Source: Thuidium tamariscinum
Lineage: Eukaryota > Streptophyta > Bryopsida > Hypnales > Thuidiaceae
Direction: 5' to 3'
DNA length: 64,000 nt
Assembly: GCA_947034885.2 (NCBI GenBank)
Contig: OX344756.2
Span: 23,605,489 to 23,669,488 of the forward strand
Each line of letters opens with the position of its first letter. The first letter of the stretch is position 1. The notes beneath the pieces are model-generated. The model saw only the letters and a program-made list of their open reading frames with translations. It searched no databases and was not told where the DNA came from. Position numbers and translations under genes: made by a program. This document shows, one piece after another, positions 46,565 through 48,923 of this stretch.

Positions 46565-47268
46565 TCGACTAGAAAAAAAAAGGAATCACGGAAATGCTCT
46601 AGAGAGTGCTTGCGCCATCAACATTGTCAAGATAAATTTTGCCTGTGATTTTCTGAACAGAATGAGTTCGCTACGTCAAAGACCTGCAGCTGAAGCTAAT
46701 TTGACACCTGTGGAGGTAGATCGCCCACCTCGTGTAGGGAAATGTCTATCAGCGTGAGTTGCAATCTGTCTGTTGGGATTGAGCTAGGACTATGGCATCA
46801 AGGAACTCGTACTGTGGATAGGAAAGTCATATGAAGCGAGGAGTTTCTCAGTATTGCGTTGTTGAATATTGGAGCGCACTCAGTTGCCATTTGGGAGTAG
46901 TATAAAGCTTTGAGGTTCAGAAGGAATGAAGAGTAGAATTTTGCAACGCGAGGCTTGTGTGAGTGTAACAGAATGAAGAGCTAGGGTTTCGATTTTCGTT
47001 GCGCGGCACCGAGGTTTTGGATGCGAGGGCGAAGGTGTTTTAAAGCCATCCGAGTTGATTGGATAACCCGAAACCCTGAACCTTGCCAATTCCATGGCCG
47101 AGAGCTTGCGCATGACCATGGCCATGGCTGTGTGTTCAGATGTGCTGCGTTCTCACGCCTTCACTCTCCTCTGCTCTGGCATTCCCTTCCGCAAGTAGCC
47201 GCATTGCTCTTCTCCGAGGCCCAGATGGCAGAGAATGCTGCATTCCACTCCTACTCGACACTCCAAAG
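46565..47268 (+). repeat. Duplicate of the AspRS promoter and presequence region
   Basis: About 700 bp closely match 56575-57283. The match includes the upstream 'gcttgcgccatcaacattgt', the 5'-UTR-like 'gcgaggcttgtgtgagtgta', the start MAESLR and the presequence text [16 protein letters not shown] up to HSTPTRHSK, where similarity ends. The ATG is at 47094. A TAG at 47196-47198 replaces the glutamine codon of the AspRS copy, so the presequence frame here is broken. Confidence 0.88.
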
Positions 47269-48923
47269 CGTTTGCTGCTGCAAATCCCCATTGCCTTCGT
47301 CCAAGCTTGCTGCCATCGTCTCTTTGCTGCAAGCGCTTATATCTCACCATCGCAGCAGCTCGCCCTAGCGTGCGTTGCCGCTTTGACCAGCTCCTCCGTG
47401 GCCGCGCTTGCCGCCTCCGCCTCGCCCTCGTCCACCCGCTCGTCGACCGCGGCGTCGGCGTCGTTGGCGCTCCGTCAGTCTCCTGCATGGCAACCAAGTG
47501 GTGCTCAGCTCGCGAAGAGCAGGTGCGTGGCAATGCCAACTTAGCGACTTAGCGAGAATTTGAACTCTCGATGTCGGATTGGATCCATTACTCTGGCTGG
47601 TCTCCTTGTATTCGAAAGTCTCGCGGCGGGATGGGTGTTGCATGTGGGTGGCCATTGCTTGCAAGAGCGGAAGTCGATGGCTGTGGATGATTGCGATTGC
47701 GTCCGATGTCGGAATCGATCTTAGCCGTGCCTTGTGTCGATTGCGTTTCTGTCAGTGATGATGCCGTTGCTTAGTCTATGTAGTGTCATTCTGATGTGGG
47801 GATGGAAGGTGTGGATCACGCATTGAAATGTGAATAGTGTTCGGCGGTGTGGGATTTGCTTACGGTGGAAGATTGGCATGTCATGTTCTGAGGTTGAATT
47901 GGATTACTATTCACAAATTAGGGATGACGAGTGTGTTGAATGGAATGTAGCAATTGCTGAGCATTTGTGTGGCAACGTGCAGAAAGCATGAGGCTGAACC
48001 CTGCGCCCATCCGAGCTGTGTTTGATGACACCACCTCGGACAGCGCTGCCCAACTCCAACAATTCGTCGACGATCTCAAGGCCAAGGTCATTTCCTTACT
48101 CCCCTCAGCCTTACATTTGTGGAATTCAGTGGGCGGTGTTTTCTCTCTATCATTGTTTTGACTTTCTTCTTTACTTTTACTTCGCTTTTTGAACAATTTT
48201 TTACTCCCATCTTGGGTCTGTACACTGGAGGTCAAGCAACTACCATTGGTTTCTGAACTGGATCAAGCTCAGTGCACTTCTTTTGTTGGCGAGCTCATCT
48301 CGTTTTTGTCTGATCCAAAGCTTTAAATATAAACTGACTCATTCGTTTTGGGATGCTGGCCGTTTTTCCTTTCACAAAGCCATGTCGCATAAGCGTATTT
48401 GTAAGTTTGTATATAGTCCTGCGTTGTTTTTTCTTCTCAAACGCTTCTCGTGTTTGCACGAACCATGATGCCTTTAAATACGAACTGACCTTAGTTTTGG
48501 GATGTCGGCACTTTTTCTTTAAGAAGTGTCCCATATTGATATAATCTCAAACTTTATTCTCAAATTGATGATTGATATGTTAATTTTCTTTTGGTTTTGC
48601 ACATAAGGCTGGTTGCCACAACCAGCTACCAGTGACCAGACTGACCTTGTATTTGTGCTGTTGGCAATGGCAGTGGGAGGCAACTGAGAACAAGGGCACA
48701 GTGGGCCTGTTCGCGGGAGGTGCACTGGTAGCCCTCCACCATAGTGGGAACCAGCATCGCCATGCCGTTGCTGCCCAAGCTCATGGAGCTCGTGGGGCTA
48801 AGCTACACGGGATGGATCGTGTACAGCTACCTGCTCTTCAAGACCAGCCGCAAGGAGCTCGTGCAAGTTGAGGTGCTCAAGGGGAAGATCACTGGTGCTG
48901 TGGAAGCAAAGAAGTGGTGGTGA
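47094..48923 (+). pseudogene. CURT1-like thylakoid curvature protein gene, decayed, behind a copied AspRS 5' end
   Basis: Likely exons are 47094-47522, 47983-48086 and 48674-48923. The first holds the copied AspRS presequence, then a Ser/Ala-rich stretch (in another frame SSSVAALAASASPSSTRSST), which looks like the original plastid transit peptide. Exon 2 reads AQLQQFVDDLKAK and splices to exon 3 WEATENKGTVGLFAGGALVA, the conserved start of CURT1. After ALVAL the frame shifts; the next frame gives the rest, IVGTSIAMPLLPKLMELVG, then LSYTGWIVYSYLLFKTSRKE to a TGA. About two or three residues plus a frame are lost in the first membrane helix. CURT1 shapes grana margins. With a stop in the presequence and a frameshift this copy is probably dead. 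Confidence 0.78.

Follow-up and report, generated by a model that had tools for sequence, protein, structure and literature searches.

The window, a stretch of 64,000 nucleotides of contig C8 (OX344756.2; 23605489-23669488) from the moss Thuidium tamariscinum, contains on its forward strand an intact gene model of a putatively organellar, bacterial-type AspRS (57101..62356; 15 exons with GT-AG introns; 676 aa), for which Pfam reports an OB fold, a class II core and a GAD domain and no match to CAAD at E up to 0.001. Promoter and leader of this gene occupy 56470..57100 (+), the flank of one of the copies described below (C3) matching up to about 56470 and thereby further than those of two others (C4 and C5). 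AspRS intron 1 holds a 163-bp tandem duplication (81%; 57574-57913). Scans of the window returned 0 tRNA genes and 0 Rfam matches. At 14402-20160 a kinase ORF (PF00069), an NB-ARC ORF and leucine-rich repeats with a period of about 72 bp stand in a row, which we take to be a kinase-NB-ARC-LRR gene of a type known from mosses.

A copy of the 5' part of AspRS, comprising promoter, leader and the start of the presequence, lies at 46553..47267 (+) with an AspRS-type ATG at 47094, which bears out the preliminary description of an AspRS promoter-plus-presequence copy standing before a CURT1-like gene. By blastn, 56572-57274 and 46556-47267 form a single match on the same strand, in which 600 out of 724 columns are identical (83%) and 33 positions are gaps. 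The pairwise alignment which had been proposed for dating the copy (local alignment of 46553-47267 with 56568-57274) yields a K2P distance of 0.137 from 86 differences at 694 compared sites, and has no gap from the AspRS ATG onward (174 bases). The right edge of the similarity is sharp, ending at 47267/57274: the sequences beyond it (47268-47530 and 57275-57530) align with a score of 18, compared to a mean of 22.5 and a maximum of 32 for shuffled sequences. At AspRS codon positions 1, 2 and 3 the block differs from AspRS at 5, 7 and 9 sites per 58, suggesting no clear constraint at the protein level on the captured presequence.

CURT1 does follow the block, as had been described, since the exon 3 part at 48738-48923 matches Pfam PF14159 (CAAD; 8.8e-14), but its coding part begins only at a former start codon (47365-47367), and 47268..47364 (+), aligning to what precedes the start codon in two intact CURT1 copies, is putatively the former native CURT1 5' leader. 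Following the splice sites of the gene models of these intact copies, we delimit a transit-peptide-like exon 1 (47365..47522, +), an exon 2 (47983..48086, +) and an exon 3 with the CAAD part (48674..48923, +); the other pieces of the window copy (48674-48744, 47985-48086 and 47140-47522) match no Pfam family at E up to 1. The window copy has no intact CURT1 frame, and the decay noted in the preliminary description is thus real, its lesions being the replacement of the start codon ATG by CTA, a 2-bp deletion between 47475 and 47476 in exon 1 and an 11-bp deletion at about 48732/48733 in exon 3. The latter accounts for the frame loss previously noticed in the first membrane helix and is present in two further copies. 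Membrane helices, a thylakoid location and membrane bending are general features of the CURT1/CAAD family, and it is from the family that we assume the helices here.

CURT1 genes and pseudogenes in the genome

Searching the genome (363,211,507 bases in 19 contigs) with CURT1 exon 3 yielded, at E up to 0.01, six places, of which five form one cluster on contig C8 and one is distant on contig C9; counts from the genome searches are lower bounds for repeats. The distant CURT1-like gene (contig C9:8181022-8181114, minus strand) lies outside the cluster and apparently has a different intron split, and the 3,093 bases around it contain no AspRS piece.

Within the cluster, copies C1 (contig C8 minus strand, 23500273-23498771; 195 aa; PF14159 1.4e-29) and C2 (contig C8 23530581-23532172; 175 aa; PF14159 3.2e-29) have intact gene models, both beginning ATGGCGTGCGTTGCC. 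Ahead of the start codon their 5' flanks are alike for about 245 bases (77% in the match as a whole) and contain no AspRS sequence. The remaining three copies, C3, C4 and the window copy C5, are pseudogenes as judged from their sequences. C4 has ATA in place of the native ATG, a stop in exon 3, a one-base gap and the 11-bp deletion, and C3 lacks almost the whole of exon 1 and has insertions of 3 bases and 1 base in exon 2 in addition to the 11-bp deletion. Being common to C3, C4 and C5, this deletion is most likely older than their separation. For exons 2 and 3, to which the comparison was restricted as C3 has lost exon 1 (110 to 119 codons, with small numbers of changes), dN/dS is 0.10 between C1 and C2, 0.39-0.58 in the six intact-versus-broken pairs and 0.52-0.89 in the three pairs among C3-C5.

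Arrangement of the repeated units

Four places with the AspRS block were found, all of them on contig C8 at 23540105-23662762, i.e. within 123 kb (4/4 candidates scored). From C2 onward the order is C2, a remnant of a neighbour gene, an AspRS piece, C3, the neighbour gene, an AspRS piece (contig C8:23570159-23570882), C4, the neighbour gene, an AspRS piece, the window copy C5, the neighbour gene and finally the whole AspRS gene. All units of this array from C2 to AspRS are in + orientation; C1, the fifth copy of the cluster, has the opposite orientation and lies outside the simple array. Intervening sequence, probably transposons for the most part, stretches the spacing of the units. Within the window, a sensitive blastn search of 36000-46600 for a duplicate of 47200-57300 gave only five short hits, the best (8e-13) in opposite orientation; none of these is placed as a 10-kb repeat would require, and the further units lie to the left of the window.

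The neighbour gene is present in units U2, U3 and U4 and as a remnant in U1. In the window it is a 608-aa ORF on the minus strand (49546..51372). Measured from stop to stop, the longest frames of the three units reach 572, 575 and 608 aa, and the gene stays open in three array units while the adjoining CURT1 copies are broken. The 608-aa frame matches no Pfam family above the cut-off, with a weak Med6 match (0.00036).

K2P distances of the AspRS block between AspRS and C3, C4 and C5 are 0.137-0.162, compared to 0.161 for the neighbour gene between C5 and C3 and 0.171 for intron 1 between C3 and C5, suggesting that block, neighbour gene and intron 1 (C3-C5) are of similar age. Intron 1 of C2 and C5 differs by 0.096 and is thus apparently younger than the split of AspRS and C5, for which we invoke a later exchange by gene conversion or crossing over.

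Two of the chimeric units bear traces of further events. The AspRS piece of C3 is partly inverted, partly deleted and joined straight to the end of CURT1 exon 1, so that the original joint is lost; its flank follows the AspRS upstream DNA to about 56470 (score 85; the best of 60 shuffles scored 47). C4 has a mosaic sequence, siding with C5 at 80 sites and with C3 at 20 up to about 48227, and with C5 at 8 sites and with C3 at 60 from about 48424 on, so that it looks like the product of an unequal crossover between a C3-like and a C5-like copy. The C4 unit spans contig C8:23570114-23575270, the switch point lying inside CURT1 intron 2. In the stretch inverted in C3, the site patterns in the order AspRS/C3/C4/C5 are abbb 12, abaa 12, aabb 7, aaba 7 and aaab 5, with 7 other variable patterns and 194 invariant sites, i.e. 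nearly star-like. The DNA ahead of the block in C4 and C5 (45613 to about 46550) was found neither upstream of AspRS nor ahead of C3; within the 224 kb examined, its segment 45613-46339 occurs in C4 and C5 alone (87.8%).

Origin of the AspRS-CURT1 joint

The joint lies in a tract at 47246..47267 (+), in which AspRS (CACTCCTACTCGACACTCCAAA) and the leader of the intact copy C2 (CACTCGCACTCGCCACTCGCAT) are identical at 16 of 22 positions, this register being the sole one among 3979 in 4 kb around C2 to reach that value. An assembly join, named beforehand as a possible source of the similarity ending here, is unlikely, as the same joint recurs in the sister copy C4 at a distance of 82 kb. The joint is most likely the breakpoint of a tandem duplication of about 10 kb, an ordinary by-product which gave rise to no new chloroplast protein. 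In this model the ancestral order was CURT1, neighbour gene and AspRS, and recombination at short imperfect homology, a CACTC-rich tract, would have occurred between AspRS exon 1 (57274) and the CURT1 5' leader (47268), duplicating the unit of roughly 10 kb between the breakpoints. AspRS promoter, leader and presequence would thereby have come to stand before each CURT1 of the array from the second onward, with the complete AspRS gene left behind the last one. Unequal crossing over between the repeats may later have enlarged the array, and a crossover of C3-like and C5-like copies may have formed C4. As expected for a tandem duplication, the copies are local with donor and recipient in the predicted order, and the gene between the breakpoints is duplicated as well, with a distance (0.161 for C3-C5) within the range found for the block. 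The model further predicts a sharp right edge, which is observed, and a common age for the parts of the unit, with which the distances given above agree except for intron 1 of C2 and C5. A left edge running into AspRS upstream DNA, its remaining prediction, is seen in C3 but not in C4 or C5.

The AspRS gene at 57101..62356 ends the array and is most likely the donor of the 5' copies. The direction from AspRS to CURT1, already proposed in the preliminary description, is likewise the most likely one, because the two intact CURT1 genes lack the block, and the polarity rests on these two genes.

The chimeric copies have decayed through the 11-bp deletion in helix 1, loss of the start codon and more indels, and the two AspRS-free CURT1 genes are still intact. 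As the AspRS ATGs captured in this way precede CURT1 in a different frame, ribosomes loading there would, by the rules of scanning, not make CURT1. We infer this translational block as the cause of the decay, as we infer the duplication mechanism itself; the copy, the array and its order, the common lesions, the intact paralogues and the frame are read directly from the sequence.

An alternative which we regard as unlikely is that an AspRS 5' segment of roughly 0.8 kb was copied alone, by double-strand-break repair, template switching or transposon capture, to a place before one CURT1, tandem amplification following afterwards. This would fit the left border of the block, which in C4 and C5 is as abrupt as the right one (46553/56568), and the DNA before it, which is not AspRS upstream sequence. 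In C3, however, the flank reaches further up into the AspRS 5' flank; the four places are local and in the same orientation apart from the inverted stretch of C3; and an AspRS piece after each unit of CURT1 and neighbour gene, together with a complete AspRS at the end, is predicted by the tandem duplication only. The tandem duplication in turn requires one further rearrangement to explain the different sequence in front of C4 and C5, which counts against its simplest version. The loss of the joint in C3, the low intron 1 distance between C2 and C5 and the position of C1 outside the array also speak against it.

Far less probable is the reading of the preliminary description, in which promoter and presequence were shuffled as exons onto CURT1, thereby making, or being selected to make, a plastid protein with the AspRS targeting signal. 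The presequence-coding part free of indels between AspRS and the window copy could be taken to favour it. However, the joint falls in the CURT1 5' leader, and in C4 and C5 the transit-peptide-like exon of CURT1 itself is retained behind it. The distance from the AspRS ATG to the CURT1 start is 271 bases in C5, leaving a remainder of 1 on division by 3, and 287 bases in C4, including one private inserted base in the presequence. After subtraction of this base C4 agrees with C5, indicating that in the common ancestor of the two the presequence and CURT1 were already in different frames. Position of the joint and frame of the AspRS ATG together argue that no presequence was shuffled onto a protein, and the codon-position differences, the frame-changing insertion in the C4 presequence and the inactivating deletion common to C3-C5 also speak against a selected targeting signal. 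The TAG which had been taken as a lesion is present at 47196-47198, but it merely ends an out-of-frame upstream ORF of 34 codons starting at the AspRS-type ATG (47094..47198, +) and killed no fusion protein.

We also considered overprinting, as the window copy has a CURT1-side frame without a stop between an ATG at 47140 and the donor site at 47522, which could apparently be spliced to exon 2 via another acceptor. This was rejected: the ATG at 47140 is absent from C4, the fit results from the 2-bp deletion private to the window copy, and splicing in the intact copies relies on a different acceptor.

The reverse transfer, by which AspRS would have taken promoter and presequence from DNA upstream of CURT1, has nothing in its favour except the similarity itself and is hardly conceivable, considering that the two intact CURT1 genes carry a different, mutually alike 5' flank and no block, and that the ATG of the block opens the AspRS frame running through 15 exons.

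Relation to known fusions and chimeras

In cyanobacteria the CAAD domain of CURT1 is fused to aminoacyl-tRNA synthetases, and such fusions are reported not to exist in plant chloroplasts (PMC4893482). Like these synthetases, the moss locus brings an aminoacyl-tRNA synthetase and CURT1/CAAD together, here as closely neighbouring genes; unlike in the fusions described there, only the AspRS 5' end stands before CURT1, out of frame and without a synthetase domain, and no CAAD-synthetase domain fusion was seen at this locus. The neighbourhood of AspRS and CURT1 is a curiosity because of the cyanobacterial fusions, and we regard the link as chance.

Tandem duplication is known to shuffle regulatory elements and to form chimeric structures, as described by Rogers, Shao and Thornton 2017 (PMC5460883). 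Read as the product of such a duplication, the locus is a well-resolved, ordinary chimera. As in the chimeras described in that paper, the edge of a duplication falls within genes and thereby places promoter and 5' part of one of them onto another; unlike in those, the joint in the moss lies in a plant, is old (K2P about 0.14), is repeated along an array and leads into dead chimeric copies. It provides a clean and readable case of tandem duplication setting the promoter and start codons of one gene before another gene, and a warning that what looks like a captured transit peptide may be no more than a duplication seam in a 5' leader.
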